A stretch of DNA of 35,236 nucleotides from an uncultured bacterium. GTDB lineage: Bacteria > Verrucomicrobiota > Kiritimatiellia > RFP12 > UBA1067. Positions 26,038 to 35,151 of this stretch are shown one piece after another (position 1 is the stretch's first letter; the number at the start of each line of letters is the position of its first letter). The stretch is from NCBI GenBank assembly GCA_902772905.1, contig CACYCL010000024.1:1-35236 (forward strand), in the 5' to 3' direction. A program made the position numbers and the translations under genes. Under the pieces are notes generated by a model, which was not told the DNA's origin, did no database searches, and saw nothing but the letters and a program-made list of their open reading frames with translations.

Positions 26038-27978
26038 CTATTTGGCCGTCGGCGGAATCATTGGTTTCAGCTCCCCTGGCGCCAGCAGCACGGTTTCACG
26101 ACCTGCGCCTGAAGCACGCTCCACTATCGCTTCCTGCGCTATGTTCGCCTCCGTGTTCAGCAGGTAGATCGTCCCGTCGGGGTATACGCTCCAACGCACG
26201 GTGTCGGCGCACTCGACCTTAGGCCATGTCTCGGCTCCAACAGCCTCCATAGCCTTGGCCAGCAGAAACGAATACAGCTTGCGCACCCCGAATGCGCCTG
26301 GAGAATCAAGCGACGCCAGAAGCACCACGCGCCCCTTGCCTAACTTGTTGACGAAACCTATGCTTCTGCATTTGCCAATCTGCTTTTCGTGAAAGCGGTC
26401 GGAGGCAACTATGAACGGCTCCGCCGTGGCAGACTCAATTTCAGGAACGTCAAAGCCACCTTCAATGAAGTCTGGATCCCATACGTTCGTAAGCGGCTGG
26501 AAGTTCCAGCCTGGACCCGGATTCTTCACGAACTTCATGCCGTGCGGAAGATGCCACTTCTTAGACGCGTCAACCCTGACGCCCGCAAGTTCAGACCAGT
26601 CGCCGTCGTTGTACGGCACGAACGCGCCGTTGGGGGCGTCCTGCACAGTCAGGTGGCTCGCCGCGAGCAGAAGAGTGCCGCCCTCCTTCACGTATGAAAC
26701 AAGCTTCGCATAGAGCGCGTCGTCCATTACGTTGCGTCCGAGGAAGAAGAGGAACTTGTACTTCGCGAACTCGCCGGCGGGAGCGTCAAAAGGCAGTATG
26801 CCTGCCGCGCCGAGCGGCGGATTGCCGGAATGGTCCGAGTCGCCCCAGTTGTCGCGCTCCTGCCAGCCGCGGCGGCGGTATAGCCCGTCAAAGAGACGCC
26901 ACGCCGTGCGATCCGCCTCGGTCACGCGAAAGGCATCGTTCTCGCGCTGCCCGAACAGATGCGTCTGGAAGATTCCCACATAGCCGTCGAAACGCCCCTG
27001 CACCGCGCCAACAGCGGCCAGCGGATAGCCGTCGGCGCGCGGATGCGCCCTGCACCACGCGGTGAAGTCGGCAAGCACCTTGCGATAGCGCCGCGACACC
27101 GGATCGTCGTGCTCGAACTTGCGCCCATGGCTTTTGAGGCTCATGAGGCCGTGTTCGTTGTAGATCGGGTCAGCTCCGCGCAGATAGGCGTGGTAGAGCG
27201 ACGTGCGCCAACGCGCCTCCCACAGTCCATCGCTCTGCATTCCACCATACCAGTCCATGGCCATGTCGGTGCCGAAGCTCTTGCGCCCGAACGCCTCCGA
27301 CGCCGTCTTAGTCCCTGCGTACGCACGCTCTAGCTCGTCCGAATACACGACCTCAAGATCAACGCGGTCGTAGCCAGCCCGCAGAAGGTATGAAGAGAAG
27401 CCAAACGCGCACTCTATCGAGAACACCATGCCGGGCAAGCCCAGTTCCCTCGCCTGGGCAAGATCGCGCCGCGTCTGGGCGCATGTCTCCGCGTACGCCT
27501 GGGCAAGCGAATCGCCGCCCTTTGCGATTCGAGGCGAGAACTTGCCACGACTCATCGTATCGTGCGGATGCCAGTAGAACATCAGCCCGCCGGACTCGCT
27601 GTAGTGCTGAACGCCCTCGCACACGTCGGCATATTCGCGGATAGCGGCAACGAGCGCGTCCTTTTGCGGCGCATATTCCTTCTTCCAGTCCCCGCTCCAG
27701 CGGTTGAACATTTCGTCCATCGTGAACGTGCAGCCGTGCTTGCGGCAGTGTTTTCCGACGGCACGGATCTTCTCAGGCGTCCACTTTCCGTGGAACAGGT
27801 TTAGCAGCGTGCCGCAGCCGTCCTTCGTAAGCGTCTCGGCCGTGGCGGCGCCGAAGCCGCCCTCGGCTATGGATCCGGTCTGCACCACATGCGCGGCACG
27901 CGCACAGGCCGGCAGCGCAACGACTGCGAGCAAAGCGGCGCCGATGCAAAAGCTGCCATTGTGAATTACGTGCTTCAT
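26038..27978 (-). CDS. Secreted glycoside-hydrolase-like protein, family uncertain
   Basis: 646 residues. A signal peptide (about 1-29, GAALLAVVALPACARAA) is followed by a TIM-barrel-like region to about 370 rich in Trp/Tyr/His, such as SGGLMFYWHPHDTMSRG, MVFSIECAFGFSSY and MDWYGGMQSDGLWEARWRTSLYHAYLRGADPIYNEHG. A flavodoxin-like segment at about 420-590 (YKFLFFLGRNVMDDALYAKLVSYVKEGGTLLLAASHL, GRVVLLASLDSPGAFGVRKLYSFLLAKAMEAVG) resembles the trimerisation domain of GH42-type beta-galactosidases. A small beta C-terminus ends the protein. No family signature is certain, and candidate acids are E in SIECAFG and in YNEHG. ATG 27978 has AAAAGGAG four bases upstream. It is the third gene of the phosphoesterase operon, 11 bases after the PAP-like gene. 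Confidence 0.65.
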   Translation of the reverse strand: MKHVIHNGSFCIGAALLAVVALPACARAAHVVQTGSIAEGGFGAATAETLTKDGCGTLLNLFHGKWTPEKIRAVGKHCRKHGCTFTMDEMFNRWSGDWKKEYAPQKDALVAAIREYADVCEGVQHYSESGGLMFYWHPHDTMSRGKFSPRIAKGGDSLAQAYAETCAQTRRDLAQARELGLPGMVFSIECAFGFSSYLLRAGYDRVDLEVVYSDELERAYAGTKTASEAFGRKSFGTDMAMDWYGGMQSDGLWEARWRTSLYHAYLRGADPIYNEHGLMSLKSHGRKFEHDDPVSRRYRKVLADFTAWCRAHPRADGYPLAAVGAVQGRFDGYVGIFQTHLFGQRENDAFRVTEADRTAWRLFDGLYRRRGWQERDNWGDSDHSGNPPLGAAGILPFDAPAGEFAKYKFLFFLGRNVMDDALYAKLVSYVKEGGTLLLAASHLTVQDAPNGAFVPYNDGDWSELAGVRVDASKKWHLPHGMKFVKNPGPGWNFQPLTNVWDPDFIEGGFDVPEIESATAEPFIVASDRFHEKQIGKCRSIGFVNKLGKGRVVLLASLDSPGAFGVRKLYSFLLAKAMEAVGAETWPKVECADTVRWSVYPDGTIYLLNTEANIAQEAIVERASGAGRETVLLAPGELKPMIPPTAK

Positions 27979-27989
27979 AATTCTCCTTT

Positions 27990-29486
27990 TCAGTTTGCGT
28001 GTACAAGATTCAACGTCAATCCAGAGGCCGAAGTTCCGTCTGAGGCGGCGACGGTCTTGAATATGCGCAGCTTGTCGTACAGAACGTGCGAGCCGTTGTC
28101 CTGATCGACCATGTAGAAATCGTACGCAAGCCGCCCCCCGTCGATGCGCATCACCCCGAACATCGAGCGACCAAGGTCCGACGACGCGGGGTCGCCGACA
28201 TTCCCCCACTTTGACGCAACCGCGATCTTGCCGATGGCTATGACTGGAAGCCGTGCGTTATATGGATGCGTACCATTTAGATTTGCATACTGCACACCCT
28301 CGCCTACGCGATGGCCTGCGCTCCCGCAGCTCAGGTAGTAGGTGCCTTCCGGGTCTTTGTCCCAAATCTCGCCGGCGTATTCGCACGTTGCGGGGGCAAG
28401 GTTTATGGCTGCCGGATCTTGGGCGGCATTGGCCCATCCCGCTCCGCTCCAGCGGTACGGCAGCGTCTTTGAGAATGTATGGTCGTGGGCCTGAAGCACA
28501 AGGTCAACCCTGTTCGCCGCGCAGATGCCGCCAAGTCGCTTGGCAAGCTCTTTTCCGCCAGTCGTCTGGGCATGGTCGCCTGTTGTGTACGGGCCAAAGT
28601 GGACGCATACGATGCGCCATACGCTCGTTCCCTTTGCAACGTTCGCCGCAAGATCGGATTCAAGCCAATTCAAGTAGTCTGCGTAGCCCGAGTAATTGTC
28701 GCTCCCGGTGTTTGGCATTGTCGCAATGTGCACGTTGCCATAGTCAAGCGACTCGCATCCGATTAGATTTGCAGGATATTCGATTGGCATGCGCGTTCCG
28801 TATTCGCGGAAGTCGTGGTTGCCGCTGGAGCTGACGAACGGAACGCCATTGTAGAATGCAAACACGGGGTCGAGCACGAAGCCCCATTTTACCGGAACGC
28901 TGACGTACGCATCGTTGACTTTCAGATTCTGGTCGAAGAGGTCGCCGCCGTTGATTATGAAGTCCACGCAGGAAGAGCCGCCAACCGCCCTCACCGACGC
29001 GGCAAGCGAGTTCACCCAACATGCGGACTTTGCAGGGTCCTTCTGCTGTGCATCGTTGAGGTTAACGATCGTGAGCCTGTCGGCGACATTCCTCACATCG
29101 GTGCGACCGTAAACGTAGTGACCAGCACCGCCGATGCGATACGAGTACGCCGTTCCGCGCTTGAGCCCCTTCACGATGACTTTGTGGCAGTTGGCAATGG
29201 CGGCTCCGGGAAACCTCGAATCTCCCACCGGCACACACGAGCCGGTGTACACCAGCGACGTGGACTCGAAGTCGTCCGGAGAAGCGGCTCCCGGCACGAG
29301 CCGCACCTCGCTTTCGGCCACAGACGTGTCGGTCTGCCAGCTGAACCCGCGGCTTTCATACCCATCAGCGAATGTCACCATGACAGCGGCGGGCGACGGC
29401 GTAATCGCGTAGGCGTCTACGCTGATTGCCGCAGCTGGCGAAACCACCGCGGCAAAGAGAAAAACAGCAAGGACAGAGCGAATCAT
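27990..29486 (-). CDS. Secreted purple-acid-phosphatase-like metallophosphoesterase
   Basis: 498 residues. A signal peptide (about 1-20, AVFLFAAVVSPAAA) is followed by a fibronectin-III-like N-domain at about 25-125 (SWQTDTSVAESEVRLV, VIVKGLKRGTAYSYRIG), as in purple acid phosphatases. The calcineurin-fold core follows: NLNDAQQKD, INGGDLFDQ, SSSGNHDF, VHFGPYTTGDH and QAHDHTFSK. These are the five metal-binding blocks in order. A C-terminal beta region (GTYYLSCGSAGHRVGEG) follows. It probably hydrolyses phosphate monoesters or diesters in the periplasm or outside the cell; the substrate is unknown. The start lacks a clear Shine-Dalgarno sequence and lies 19 bases after the preceding stop, so coupling is likely. 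A role in releasing phosphate from phosphorylated glycans is inferred from its glycosidase neighbours only. Confidence 0.8.
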   Translation of the reverse strand: MIRSVLAVFLFAAVVSPAAAISVDAYAITPSPAAVMVTFADGYESRGFSWQTDTSVAESEVRLVPGAASPDDFESTSLVYTGSCVPVGDSRFPGAAIANCHKVIVKGLKRGTAYSYRIGGAGHYVYGRTDVRNVADRLTIVNLNDAQQKDPAKSACWVNSLAASVRAVGGSSCVDFIINGGDLFDQNLKVNDAYVSVPVKWGFVLDPVFAFYNGVPFVSSSGNHDFREYGTRMPIEYPANLIGCESLDYGNVHIATMPNTGSDNYSGYADYLNWLESDLAANVAKGTSVWRIVCVHFGPYTTGDHAQTTGGKELAKRLGGICAANRVDLVLQAHDHTFSKTLPYRWSGAGWANAAQDPAAINLAPATCEYAGEIWDKDPEGTYYLSCGSAGHRVGEGVQYANLNGTHPYNARLPVIAIGKIAVASKWGNVGDPASSDLGRSMFGVMRIDGGRLAYDFYMVDQDNGSHVLYDKLRIFKTVAASDGTSASGLTLNLVHAN

Positions 29487-29505: not shown

Positions 29506-32262
29506 TTAACGGCAATACGGCTGCGTCCAGGCTGTATGGTGGTCTGGATGCAGCTTGCGCCTGCGCTTGAACTGCGTGGGCGCATCGCTCTCGACGCGGG
29601 CGCGGACGTACAGGTCGTCATCCGCGAGCGCGTAGGACGCAGCGAGTCTCTGACCCTTCGCGCCTTCGACAAGCTTGACGGTCGCGCCGATGCGTTCGTC
29701 GTAGATCGGAACCTTGCGTGCACGGTTCATGTGCTCCTTCGTCGCCGGAATGTCAACGTAGCGAACGGGGTCGAGCGGCGCCCCCCTCTTCGTGGAGATG
29801 AAGCGAACCTTGCAGGCGACGCCGGGAATCGCCGGAACGGAGACAGTTAGAGTGCCAGTGGCGCGGTCGAAGGCGACGTCCTCCAGGTCCAGTTCGGAAG
29901 ACGCGTAGAAGTCGCCGCGATGGATCGCCTCGAAGAGCGCCTTCTGCGTCAGCTCCTTGGCGCGCACCATAATGTAGCCGTCGCAGAAGGTGTACGGGTT
30001 CTCCAGTCCACTGCCTGGATAGAAATGCGTGTCATCGCATCCAAAGCCGTATAGCGGCTGCTGGCCGTGCGTCATGCGATAGGCAAGCACAGCATCCCAG
30101 ATGTGGTCGTGGTACCACTCGCCGTCCAGCTCGTCGGGCACGGGCCACTCGGAACCATTGCTGCACACCTCGAAGTAGCGCAGCTCCGGGTTGTCGATTA
30201 TGTCCTGCGCGCCAACGTCGTACAAAAGCCAATTCGGGTGATTGACCATGCATATGCAATCCTGTCCGCGCTTCTTCGCAAGCGCCTCGCTCATCTCGCG
30301 CGTCTCGCGGATGATGGACGCGACGGTGTGCTTCGGGCAGCTTTCTATCAGCTTAGCCTTCTTCGCGCGCTCGATTATGTCGTCGATGCCAATCACGTTC
30401 ATGTGCATGGCGTGTGTAATGCCGGTCGCCTTGGCGTCGGTCGTGATCTCCACGCCTGGGAGCAAAAGGAACTTCTCCGGCTCGTCAAACATCTTCTTCA
30501 GCTCGGTGTAGGTGGCAAGGCGCACCTCCGTCTTGCCGTCGCGCTCGCGCACGTTGCCCTTGCCGAAGCGCGCGACATACGCCTTGAAGCAGTCGGGGTG
30601 AATCACTTTCGGCGGCCAGCCCTTCTCCGTTCCGTTTCCGACAGGCATCCACTTGTCGGGATCGCCCTGGAAGCGGTTGTGGTCGGAAAGCGCGATGAAG
30701 TCGTAGCCGATATCCTTGTACGCGGCGACAGCCTGCTCCGGCAGCGCGCGCCCGTCGGACCAGTGCGTGTGCATGTGCAGCATGCCGCGATACCAGCGCG
30801 TCCCGTCGCGCACGCTCCACGTGACAGGCGGAAGCGGCTGGCCGTGCATGCCGAACGAGTTGGCCGGCCGCACGCTGAACGTCACAGGCCTGTCGAGCGG
30901 CAGCTCGTGCCTCCCAAACACGCACAAAGAAGGCTCCTTCTCGAATTCTTCGCTCCAGTACGCCCTGGTCGAGAACACGCGCCGCGAGAGTTTGAAGCCC
31001 TTGGCGGAAGCCGTGACTTCGTAGTCCAGCGCGCGCGGATGCCCGTCGTGCGAATGCGCGGGCGGGAAGCTTACTACGACCTGCGCCATGGATTTCTTCG
31101 CCCGGTTCTTCCCGATTCGGGTCGAAACCGAGGCAACGGCACCATCCGGAAACTCTGGTTCGACGGCAATCGACCGGCGAACCGCCTCAGAGCACGAACC
31201 GTCGGGGCTTGGCAGAGGCACAACCCAGTCGGCGCCCATCGAGCTGTCGTGGCGCACGTCGCGGCGCTCTAGGACGATGCGATCGGGGTAAACCGTCATG
31301 AAGAGCGCCTGGTTCGACGAGAAGCAGTCCACGCGGTTCATCAGCTGCGGGCGCTTCTTGTCGGGCTGGTTGCCGCCTGAGAAGGAGTTCTCGCGCCCGC
31401 CGCGCGTGCCGCAGTAGCTTGTGGACGGCACGTGGACGGCGGTGTATTCGCCCTGCCAGATGTTCAGCTCGTCGGCGCAGTTGCAGTGGGCGTGACCGAA
31501 GAACGCCATGACGTTCGGATACCTGGCAAGCGCCTTGTGGTTGACGTCGCCGGCTAGATTCTTCGGATCCCATTCCGGTAGAGTGCCGTGCACAGGACGA
31601 TGCATGGAGTAGAAGAAAGGCTTGTTTGGATCGGGGTTTGCCGAGGCGAGCGCTTCGGCAAGCCCGGGAATCGCCGTGCCCTTGGACATGTTGCGCGGAT
31701 GGTGCGCCAAGACGAATGTGTAGCCCTTTACGGTCTTAACCTGAATCGGCGCCCATTTCTCGTGGAAGAGACGCTCCCAAATCGCCTCTATGTTCTCGTT
31801 CATAAGCGCATGATTTGGCGCATCGGGGTCTATCGACGACGACTTCGCCCACGAATACTTGTGCGCAAAGCCGCCGAAGTCATGGTCGCCTAGATGAAAG
31901 AGCTGCTCGATGGGCTGACCGTCGGAGCGGCGTCCATTCGGAAACACCTTGTACCATATCTCCGCCGCATACTCAAGTTCCGAGACAAGTCCGCAGTCGG
32001 CTATGTCGCCGCAGAGCAGAACGGCATCCGCCTTCTGTGCGTCGTACCAGCGAAGCGTCTTTTCGAAATAGACGTCGCTGTGCATGACGTCTTTTTGCCT
32101 GAGCAGGTGGATGTCGGAGAGCACACCGACTCTGAGGCTCGGTCCCATGCACTTTTTCTCCGGCAGGCAACCAGCCGCCGCCAGCACCGTTGTCGCAGTG
32201 GCCTGCCCAAAGAACGCCCTGCGCGAAAGCGCGGGCCCGATCATGTCCAGTTGTCTTTTCAT
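29506..32262 (-). CDS. Tat-exported fusion of metallophosphoesterase and PHP phosphoesterase
   Basis: 918 residues. The N-terminus carries a twin-arginine signal (S13-R-R-A-F-F, then a hydrophobic stretch to AAAGC32, possibly a lipid-attachment cysteine). The first catalytic domain (about 43-330) is calcineurin-type: VLSDIH52, LLCGDIADCG, LGDHDFGG, AHHPRNM and FFGHAHCN. After a beta-rich middle part (about 360-480) comes a PHP domain (about 490-770): LHMHTHWSDG, FIALSDHN, LLPGVEITT, MVNHPNW and FGCDDTHFY, the metal-binding His/Asp/Glu set. A beta tail follows. Two unrelated phosphoesterase active sites in one exported chain are unusual. ATG 32262 is chosen because the Tat motif follows it and a -10 box lies just upstream; an in-frame start 51 bases earlier would precede the promoter. 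It leads a three-gene operon. Confidence 0.83.
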   Translation of the reverse strand: MKRQLDMIGPALSRRAFFGQATATTVLAAAGCLPEKKCMGPSLRVGVLSDIHLLRQKDVMHSDVYFEKTLRWYDAQKADAVLLCGDIADCGLVSELEYAAEIWYKVFPNGRRSDGQPIEQLFHLGDHDFGGFAHKYSWAKSSSIDPDAPNHALMNENIEAIWERLFHEKWAPIQVKTVKGYTFVLAHHPRNMSKGTAIPGLAEALASANPDPNKPFFYSMHRPVHGTLPEWDPKNLAGDVNHKALARYPNVMAFFGHAHCNCADELNIWQGEYTAVHVPSTSYCGTRGGRENSFSGGNQPDKKRPQLMNRVDCFSSNQALFMTVYPDRIVLERRDVRHDSSMGADWVVPLPSPDGSCSEAVRRSIAVEPEFPDGAVASVSTRIGKNRAKKSMAQVVVSFPPAHSHDGHPRALDYEVTASAKGFKLSRRVFSTRAYWSEEFEKEPSLCVFGRHELPLDRPVTFSVRPANSFGMHGQPLPPVTWSVRDGTRWYRGMLHMHTHWSDGRALPEQAVAAYKDIGYDFIALSDHNRFQGDPDKWMPVGNGTEKGWPPKVIHPDCFKAYVARFGKGNVRERDGKTEVRLATYTELKKMFDEPEKFLLLPGVEITTDAKATGITHAMHMNVIGIDDIIERAKKAKLIESCPKHTVASIIRETREMSEALAKKRGQDCICMVNHPNWLLYDVGAQDIIDNPELRYFEVCSNGSEWPVPDELDGEWYHDHIWDAVLAYRMTHGQQPLYGFGCDDTHFYPGSGLENPYTFCDGYIMVRAKELTQKALFEAIHRGDFYASSELDLEDVAFDRATGTLTVSVPAIPGVACKVRFISTKRGAPLDPVRYVDIPATKEHMNRARKVPIYDERIGATVKLVEGAKGQRLAASYALADDDLYVRARVESDAPTQFKRRRKLHPDHHTAWTQPYCR

Positions 32263-32304: not shown

Positions 32305-32328
32305 AAATTGCATTGGCCTGCGTTGGAA

Positions 32329-35118
32329 TCAGCGCAGAGCATCTATGATGCCGTCGAGCATTGCTGAGCTTTCCGGCTGGCCAGACAAGATGTCCAGGCC
32401 GAATGCGGCCACGTGACGCCCTTTCTCCGTCTTGATCTCGCCCAGATAGAGATAGCAGTCTTTCTTGCCCTCGCCAACGACAATCGGCGTCGCCACGTTC
32501 AGTTCCCTGCGCGAAAGCTCATACGCTCCTTCTTTCACCGCGCGAAAGAGGAGCGGCGTCAGCACACCCTCGTGCGGCAATCCCGCAAGCATCGGCGCGC
32601 CTTTTGCGAGCGCCATGCCAACCTGGCTGCCCATCGACCACCAGCCAAGCGACACGTTCGGCTTTCCGTCCCAGCCTGAGATGGTCAGCACATTCTGCCC
32701 GCGCCCAAGTGCTTCCGTCGCCGTCTTCGATGCAAACGGCGCAATCACGACCCGCGCATTTGCACCATCCGGCGACGAGGCATCGACCACGCCGTCATAA
32801 AGCTTCGCGAGCAATGGCAACAAAGCGGCATCGGCGGCGACATCCGCTCCGTTGCGCTTTGCGCGTTTCGGAAACACCCATAAGTTCCATTCGTTGGCGG
32901 TGCCATCCACCTCGGCGCGCAGCACGGCTTTCGCGGCCTTGGCTACTGATGGCACCTTAAGCATCACCTCGGCTATGGGGCGCGCACTGCCCTCGGGTAT
33001 CTCCGACACAGGTTCTGCGCCCTTCAGCAGCACGTCGCCGTCCGCCGAAAGCGTCCAGCGAACGAAGACGTTCCGTTTCGGGGCGCCGTCGTAGTTGGCA
33101 AAGAAAAACGTGACCTTGTGCTTGTCTCCGACAGAGGCCACAGGGCACTCTGGCGCAAAATCTGCCAACACAGCGCTAGTGCCGTTGAACATTGCGAACC
33201 GCTCTGGAGAAAGGCCTCCTTGCTTCGTCTGCCAGAACGGATCGAAAAGCCCTTGAGCGGAATGTATGGCGCCGTTTGCGACTACCACGTCAACCGCAGT
33301 CCAGAAGCAATAGCCGTCGCAGTATGGATCCTTTCGCGCCCACTCTATGCCACGCTTCTGGTAAATGCCCTGAAGCGTATGCTGCGCATCCTGAAGTGCA
33401 TCGCCCCATGCAAGGTCGAGTCCGCGCTCCGCCAGCCACTTGGCGCGGTCGGCACGCGAATCGGGCGCAACCCATGCGCCCGTGTAGAGCGGTTCCAGTC
33501 GAGTGTCCTGCTTGACGCAAAGGTTCAGGTATTCGTGACATACGAAAGGCCGCCCGGTGTTGAAGGAGCCTCGCGGCCATACGTCGCGCGGGCCAATGTC
33601 GTAGTCGGAGTTGCCAGGGTCGTTGCAGCCCTCGTCGTCGTCGCACTCAAGCCACGCGCACCTGTCCCCGTCCTGATGGTTCACGAGCCTTCCGGGATCC
33701 GTGCGCTTCACGTACGCATACATTTCCTTCTCGACATACGGGCCAAGACGCCCCTCGTTGCCGCCGCAGTAGACGGCGAACGACGGATAGCGCCTGTAGT
33801 GCTCGTACAGCTCCTTCAGGTCGCGGAGCGGATCGAAGGTGAACGCCTCGGTAGGCACGTCGGTATAGTACGGCAGTTCCGGCTGGACGAGAATACCGGC
33901 CTCGTCCGCCGCCTCAAAGTACTCCGGCACCTCGCAGTGCGTGTGCAGCCGCACGAAGTTGAAGCCAGCAGCATGCGCCTTTCTTAGATGTGCAAGGTGC
34001 GTCTCGCGGTCGGGCGGCGGAAGCCCCGTGAGCGGATACACGCTGTCATCGCCGAACCCGCGCAGGAAGTACGGGTGGTTGTTCAGGTAGAATTCACCGC
34101 CGCGCACCTCGACCTTGCGGACGCCAAACCGCTCGCGACGCGTCTGTACCACCGCGCCAGCTCCGTCCAGAAGAGCGATGTCGGCCCAGTAGAGATTTGG
34201 ATGTTCGGGCGACCAAGGGCGGAAGTTCCTGAGGGGAAGACTCACGACAGTCTCGCCCGCCGCGCTGGCAGGGCACGTCACCTTCTCGCCCTCGACCGTC
34301 ACGCGCACCCGGCTCACGTGCACCGCCGCCCCAGAGACCGTAACATGCGCCTCTGCAGTCTGTGCATCGAAGTCGCCGCGAACCCATGCGTCGTCAATGC
34401 GCGTCTCAGGCGTCGCCTCCAGCTCCACGTCACGATATATGCCGCCCCAGCGATGGACGTTGCTCATCAGACCCTTGCGCGACGGCAGCTTGTTGTTCAC
34501 GCAGACGGTAATGCGGTTCTTGCCGCCAAGCTTCACGAACGGAGTGATGTCGTACTTGTACGTGCCGCAGTAATTGTCTACCCACGCGACTGGATGCTTG
34601 TTCACCCAGAACCAGCCCTGCGACTTCACGCCGCCTACCTTGAGCCACACCTTCTTGCCAGCCCAGGCAGACGGCAGCTCTACGTCCTTTTGGTACCAGC
34701 CCTCGCCCATATAGACATGGCGCAGCTTCTTGGGGCTGCTGTCCCACAGAGGATCCCAAGTCTCGGACATTCCAGGCTCGCCCACGCCCTGCGCCTCCCA
34801 TGCACCAGGCACGTTGATCTTCCGCGCCGACGACCACGTATCCATTTTGCTACGGCGCTTGACCGGCGTCTGCTCGTCCACCTTGGCGAACGGAACCTTC
34901 GTGTGACGGTAGCGGCGGCAAAACGGTATTGGCTGCGTTACGAACTCCCACTCTCCGCGCAGCGATATGAAATCTGGCGACGCCTCTCGCCCGACAGGAT
35001 TCACAACAGCCGGCAGCGGCTTTATGCCAGCCCATGTGTCCACGCCGTGCAGCTCTTCGCCTCGCACCGCAACCACCGCCCATGCAATGCCGAACAAAAA
35101 CGTAAATGTCTTCTTCAT
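32329..35118 (-). CDS. Secreted glycoside hydrolase family 2 enzyme
   Basis: 929 residues. A signal peptide (about 1-21, MKKTFTFLFGIAWAVVAVRG) is followed by the GH2 sugar-binding jelly roll (about 40-225: WEFVTQPIPF, VPGAWEAQG, WYQKDVELP, GGIYRDVELEA). Next come the immunoglobulin-like domain (about 230-330) and the TIM barrel (about 340-640). The barrel starts FYLNNHPYFLRGFGDDS and has RLHTHCEVPEYFEAADEAGILVQPELP. The likely acid/base is E455 in CGGNEG and the likely nucleophile E529 in VCHEYL. A C-terminal beta extension follows (about 680-929). Members include beta-galactosidases, glucuronidases and mannosidases; the specificity is not visible. ATG 35118 is chosen to give a clean signal peptide, though a GTG nine bases earlier is also possible. 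It follows the upstream gene by 33 bases, with no promoter seen. Confidence 0.88.
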   Translation of the reverse strand: MKKTFTFLFGIAWAVVAVRGEELHGVDTWAGIKPLPAVVNPVGREASPDFISLRGEWEFVTQPIPFCRRYRHTKVPFAKVDEQTPVKRRSKMDTWSSARKINVPGAWEAQGVGEPGMSETWDPLWDSSPKKLRHVYMGEGWYQKDVELPSAWAGKKVWLKVGGVKSQGWFWVNKHPVAWVDNYCGTYKYDITPFVKLGGKNRITVCVNNKLPSRKGLMSNVHRWGGIYRDVELEATPETRIDDAWVRGDFDAQTAEAHVTVSGAAVHVSRVRVTVEGEKVTCPASAAGETVVSLPLRNFRPWSPEHPNLYWADIALLDGAGAVVQTRRERFGVRKVEVRGGEFYLNNHPYFLRGFGDDSVYPLTGLPPPDRETHLAHLRKAHAAGFNFVRLHTHCEVPEYFEAADEAGILVQPELPYYTDVPTEAFTFDPLRDLKELYEHYRRYPSFAVYCGGNEGRLGPYVEKEMYAYVKRTDPGRLVNHQDGDRCAWLECDDDEGCNDPGNSDYDIGPRDVWPRGSFNTGRPFVCHEYLNLCVKQDTRLEPLYTGAWVAPDSRADRAKWLAERGLDLAWGDALQDAQHTLQGIYQKRGIEWARKDPYCDGYCFWTAVDVVVANGAIHSAQGLFDPFWQTKQGGLSPERFAMFNGTSAVLADFAPECPVASVGDKHKVTFFFANYDGAPKRNVFVRWTLSADGDVLLKGAEPVSEIPEGSARPIAEVMLKVPSVAKAAKAVLRAEVDGTANEWNLWVFPKRAKRNGADVAADAALLPLLAKLYDGVVDASSPDGANARVVIAPFASKTATEALGRGQNVLTISGWDGKPNVSLGWWSMGSQVGMALAKGAPMLAGLPHEGVLTPLLFRAVKEGAYELSRRELNVATPIVVGEGKKDCYLYLGEIKTEKGRHVAAFGLDILSGQPESSAMLDGIIDALR

Positions 35119-35151
35119 GTCTTTCACTTGCCTTTCAAGAGCCTACGCATG

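Follow-up and report, generated by a model that had tools for sequence, protein, structure and literature searches.

A gut bacterium related to Kiritimatiellae carries a gene in which two tandem genes have been joined in frame; elsewhere, each of the two codes for its own Tat-exported metallo-hydrolase. The predicted chain begins with a twin-arginine signal, continues with an N-terminal metallophosphoesterase (MPE) half, and ends with a C-terminal PHP half. We found the gene in a 35,236-nucleotide stretch of DNA (contig CACYCL010000024.1), referred to here as the window, and its features and those of its neighbors are collected in Table 1. Comparisons of sequence and gene context lead us, on balance, to favor a role in glycan breakdown, as an exported accessory hydrolase in which a phosphoesterase is joined to an ester-type hydrolase. 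The domain architecture appears to be new, while the folds are known; a search of the literature available to us found no published MPE-PHP fusion.

TABLE 1 Positions in the window of the fused gene, its predicted domains, and its neighboring genes
Feature	Position	Strand	Basis
Fused MPE-PHP gene, 918 aa, Tat-exported (predicted)	29506..32262	minus	ORF, Pfam/NCBIfam, full-length relatives
Tat signal SRRAFFGQATATTVLAAAG followed by C; possible lipoprotein Cys32	32170..32262	minus	Sequence, aligned MPE homologues, TatC
Metallophosphoesterase domain, residues 43-335: D50xH52, GD86xxD89, GD126HD128, H221, GH257xH259	31258..32136	minus	PF00149, motif columns, VIA-align
Beta-rich domain after MPE, residues 341-482	30817..31242	minus	Paralogue alignments, model strands
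Fusion junction, residues 483-488, SVRDGT	30799..30816	minus	L014 and L059 junction sequences
PHP domain, residues 489-790: H496, H498, D503, H528, E605, H620, H675, D744, H746	29893..30798	minus	NF038032, conservation, 3e38
C-terminal beta domain of PHP half, residues 791-918, conserved end AWTQPY	29509..29892	minus	Alignments, model strands
GH2 enzyme gene, upstream	32329..35127	minus	Pfam/NCBIfam, L052
Pur_ac_phosph_N + Metallophos gene, downstream	27990..29486	minus	Pfam
GH42/GLMA-like gene, ORF 26038-28209, real start about 27960	26038..27960	minus	GLMA_2nd / Glyco_hydro_42M, homologues

A predicted Tat substrate with two metal sites

The 918-aa frame opens at an ATG at position 32262. 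An alternative start at 32313 is possible and would give 935 aa; relatives begin at the 918-aa position. The N-terminus holds the twin-arginine motif SRRAFFGQ (R14, R15), followed by a weak lipobox, LAAAGC (C32), and R14, R15, and F17 are kept in all 11 aligned MPE homologues. The genome also encodes TatC (173.8 bits), and the two marks of a Tat substrate, a twin-arginine signal and TatC, are both present. An initial annotation, made from the letters of this DNA alone, had proposed two unrelated phosphoesterase sites in a single chain of 918 residues with a twin-arginine signal; the reading frame, the signal, TatC, and the conserved ligands bear out two metallo-hydrolase sites of unrelated kinds in a chain exported by Tat. 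Antisense to the PHP half there is an open frame of 401 aa (window positions 30067 to 31272, plus strand), which is probably a by-product of high G+C.

The Metallophos profile PF00149 matches the N-terminal half at 35.5 bits against a cut-off of 21.5 (Pfam; E value, 1.8e-8; residues 60 to 277 of the 935-aa form). Among the MPE motifs DxH, GDxxD, GNH(D/E), H, and GHxH, four are intact, and the third has changed from N to D. In 918-aa numbering, D50, H52, D86, H127, D128, H221, H257, and H259 are identical in 14 of 14 MPE homologues, and the ligand D89 is identical in 13, with one paralogue departing. Motif III reads GDHD (Asp126) instead of GNHD, with Asp in 10 of the 14 sequences and Asn in the other four; GDHD is common to the fused protein and its nearer relatives, whereas four more distant paralogues keep GNHD. 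The MPE site would be complete only if Asp126 can replace Asn.

A full-length AlphaFold model was of moderate quality (mean pLDDT, 66.9; pTM, 0.55). Its MPE part (residues 39 to 335) aligned with Rv0805 at Z 19.5 and with GpdQ at Z 19.0 (VIA-align) and also matched purple acid phosphatase and SMPDL3A, with all four matches at Z 18 to 19.5. A phosphoesterase is the probable identity of the MPE half. For the whole model, the best PDB match was 3e38 (E value, 8e-9), which corresponds to its PHP part.

The beta-rich domain that follows the MPE domain is also found in stand-alone MPE paralogues, and the alignment with these runs to about residue 478. About a dozen stand-alone Tat-exported paralogues, a large expansion for one genome, are spread over about a dozen contigs of the same 2.36-Mb genome (G000), and MPE relatives occur in 94 of 162 genomes of the order, with up to 37 candidates in other genomes. 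Because the neighborhoods of the stand-alone copies in G000 are mixed and largely housekeeping, the MPE half alone offers no glycan link. Two side observations concern this family. A decayed MPE copy (L007, G000:C71) is about 66% identical over residues 10 to 167 and has an internal stop, and two MPE relatives (L115, 1881-5222; L116, 2283-5600) have ∼600 additional C-terminal residues, which form three repeats resembling one another (YVESxGxQYVxTG...) and match no Pfam profile.

Profiles place the PHP half near a known hydrolase family. PF02811 (PHP) reaches 22.3 bits, under its cut-off of 26.4 (Pfam; E value, 1.8e-4), and covers motif I only. The best NCBIfam match is NF038032 (CehA/McbA), at 65 to 69 bits and thus under its cut-off of 80; this model matches 31 of 31 relatives. 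The nine positions listed for the PHP domain in Table 1, which we take from general knowledge of PHP structures to be the ligands of a trinuclear site, are each invariant in all 36 PHP homologues. The initial annotation had called the metal sites of both domains complete, which stands for the nine positions of the PHP domain; in the MPE domain it had missed the substitution in motif III. When the PHP half was modeled by itself, the model resembled no PHP structure and had no significant match in Foldseek, a result that we attribute to weakness of the model rather than to an absent fold.

The PHP family is present in 57 of 346 genomes of the class and in 33 of 388 genomes drawn from the phylum. 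Most of the stand-alone copies examined have a twin-arginine N-terminus, so export is the rule in this family. The suggestion that an exported PHP protein would be unusual finds no support in these relatives or in 3e38, a Bacteroides vulgatus protein that pairs a PHP domain with another domain. Additional N-terminal domains seemed to be present in L050, L051, L113, L114, L117, and L119 and were rejected, the extra length being read as an upstream open frame with a Tat-type start (e.g., MQTTRRGF or MTRKSF) directly preceding the homologous part. In L019 (4325-4717), a PHP gene has a large in-frame deletion (residues 560 to 890 missing) and is either a remnant or an assembly error.

Purifying selection acts on both halves. 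Between fused copies, dN/dS was 0.06 to 0.18 in both catalytic halves, and each half is therefore probably active as an enzyme. Constraint is looser in the beta domain that follows the MPE domain (dN/dS, 0.14 to 0.26, with the near-identical pair L009/L013 left out).

One chain made from two tandem genes

A search of species genomes recovered the same domain order in other species, with full-length relatives at 76 to 89% identity. The fused form is found in six genomes (the window's own and those of L009, L010, L011, L012, and L013), always with the same domain order and with the junction at an identical position. In G139 (L014/L056) and G087 (L059), the MPE and PHP genes are separate and adjacent, each with a twin-arginine-type signal. 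At the junction site, the two-gene form has a stop codon, a start codon, and a second Tat signal, in place of which the fused proteins carry six residues, SVRDGT in the window copy. With these three elements gone, a single Tat signal exports both enzymes at a fixed 1:1 ratio. An assembly artefact was rejected as the source of the fusion, given the same open fusion in six separately assembled genomes and a two-gene form with a clean stop, start, and second signal. The sequence RRVF near residue 428 was considered as a relic of the second Tat signal and likewise rejected, as it sits in the beta domain of the MPE half.

We take the two-gene form as the probable ancestral state, since stand-alone genes with a Tat signal make up most of the PHP family. 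The trees of the MPE and PHP halves differ, and in neither do the fused copies group as a single clade. The PHP tree places L056, a split form, together with L030 and the fused copy of the window, and the MPE tree groups the MPE of the L056 genome (L021) with the split L029. The joint may therefore have arisen, or been lost, on more than one occasion. Such a scattered pattern, along with the fact that each half also exists alone as a complete exported enzyme, would suit a fusion of mere convenience for co-expression and co-export, with unrelated substrates and no mechanistic gain from joining. We think this improbable, given that the junction is shared by all six fused genomes and that every one of the eight close MPE orthologues (≥71% identity) from 162 genomes of the order is either part of a fusion with PHP or next to a PHP gene, despite the many other MPE paralogues in the genus. 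The existence of a tandem two-gene form lends weight to the idea that the halves may have related substrates.

Gene neighborhoods and other fusions suggest a link to glycans

The fused gene lies among candidate glycoside hydrolase genes. The GH2 gene precedes it by 66 bp, and a purple-acid-phosphatase-like gene starts 19 bp after it and sits between it and the GH42-like gene, all four being on one strand. The best NCBIfam model of the GH2 protein is named for BT4151, with a score far under the cut-off; BT4151 is an exo-beta-1,4-galactosidase of a rhamnogalacturonan-I locus of Bacteroides (PMC8002723). The GLMA_2nd and Glyco_hydro_42M matches of the GH42-like protein are also under cut-off. The neighboring genes of PHP vary from locus to locus. 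The GH42-like gene is the most conserved of them, with 79 to 83% identical homologues in L009, L012, L013, L014, L067, and L088 and a partial homologue in L057. Other neighbors include rhamnosidase, GH97, GH43, GH5, KdgT, LarA, and laminin-G-like proteins. The purple-acid-phosphatase-like gene had no homologue among the fetched loci of relatives.

The PHP domain has also been joined to glycoside hydrolases themselves. In genome G072 (L052, 1676-5758, minus strand), a GH2 enzyme ∼50% identical to that of the window is joined directly to a PHP domain in a 1361-aa frame. In L053, L054, and L055, from three genomes in two other families of the order, the PHP domain is followed by GH5, and the signal is Sec-like, not Tat. 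In L121 (319-3096, minus strand), the PHP domain is fused to a complete GH20 hexosaminidase. Together, these fusions and neighbors suggest a role in glycan breakdown, perhaps of pectin.

The initial annotation had taken both halves for phosphoesterases and had suggested that they could work in series, for example on a diester and then a monoester, with a single substrate outside the cell. In fuller form, an extracellular phosphodiester would be cut stepwise, from diester to monoester and on to phosphate, to scavenge phosphate or phospho-glycans. Most characterized PHP proteins are phosphoesterases. The genetic linkage of MPE and PHP, an MPE fold nearest to phosphodiesterases and phosphatases, the purple-acid-phosphatase-like MPE gene directly downstream, and an Exo_endo_phos gene near the MPE/PHP pair in G087 would all accord with such a series. 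We nevertheless consider it rather unlikely, since the nearest PHP family consists of ester and carbamate hydrolases, not phosphatases (PMC8292978), the fusion partners of PHP are glycoside hydrolases, and at least four genomes (G033, G059, G063, and G065) have a PHP orthologue (81 to 82% identity) without this MPE orthologue. The PHP half comes nearest to CehA/McbA, whose characterized members cleave carbamate esters, and it keeps company with glycoside hydrolases both in its fusions and in its gene neighborhoods. No support was found for teichoic acid, or for any specific phosphorylated polymer, as the substrate. Because CehA and its relatives cleave carbamate esters and the histidine motifs appear to fit, we rate an ester-type glycan hydrolase as the likelier function of the PHP half, above a phosphoesterase.

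A proposed role and its implications

If, as we favor, the protein is exported to assist in glycan breakdown, it would fold and load its metals in the cytoplasm, and Tat would then carry the folded protein across the inner membrane, to act in the periplasm or as a lipoprotein. The N-terminal half would be a dinuclear phosphoesterase of the Rv0805/GpdQ kind, and the C-terminal half would be a trinuclear PHP hydrolase of the CehA/McbA type that takes an ester-type substituent (carboxyl, carbamoyl, or phosphoryl) off glycan fragments. Removal of the substituent would let the neighboring GH2 and GH42-like enzymes proceed. A broader proposal, which we offer tentatively, is that the PHP half belongs to an unrecognized exported carbohydrate-active family that removes ester-type decoration from plant-glycan fragments, has been separately fused to GH2, GH5, GH20, and a phosphoesterase, and might merit a carbohydrate-esterase-like class of its own.

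What surprises is not so much that an exported protein has two sites as that this PHP family has repeatedly been joined to glycoside hydrolases and, in the present gene, to a phosphoesterase. The two-gene form and the glycoside hydrolase fusions provide a testable lead on an uncharacterized exported PHP family across the phylum searched. If the PHP half does remove glycan decorations, a metal-dependent family would be added to the carbohydrate-active enzymes, and CehA/McbA-like proteins would have a natural role beyond pesticide degradation.

Comparison with known systems

CehA and its relatives hydrolyze carbamate esters, and histidines H313, H315, H453, and H495 of CehA have been reported as important (review, PMC8292978). 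The PHP-type domain of the fused protein has HxH, NHP, and other histidine motifs in the CehA order, and these four residues appear to correspond, in order and motifs, to H496, H498, H620, and H675. The fused protein differs from CehA/McbA in scoring under the family cut-off, in lying in glycan loci and not in a setting of pesticide degradation, and in being joined to an MPE. The structure 3e38 (BVU_3505) shares the arrangement of a PHP domain plus a second domain and is matched by sequence profile too (E value, 0.0056); however, its identity is 15%, it lacks an MPE half, and its record title gives no function. The N-terminal half resembles the Rv0805- and GpdQ-type metallophosphoesterases in fold and metal motifs, but it has only ∼18% identity with them, GDHD where they have GNHD, an added beta-rich domain, and Tat export. 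Each half also has close relatives in the stand-alone Tat-exported MPE and PHP families of the order, which share its boundaries and export signals, whereas the fused protein holds both halves in one chain.
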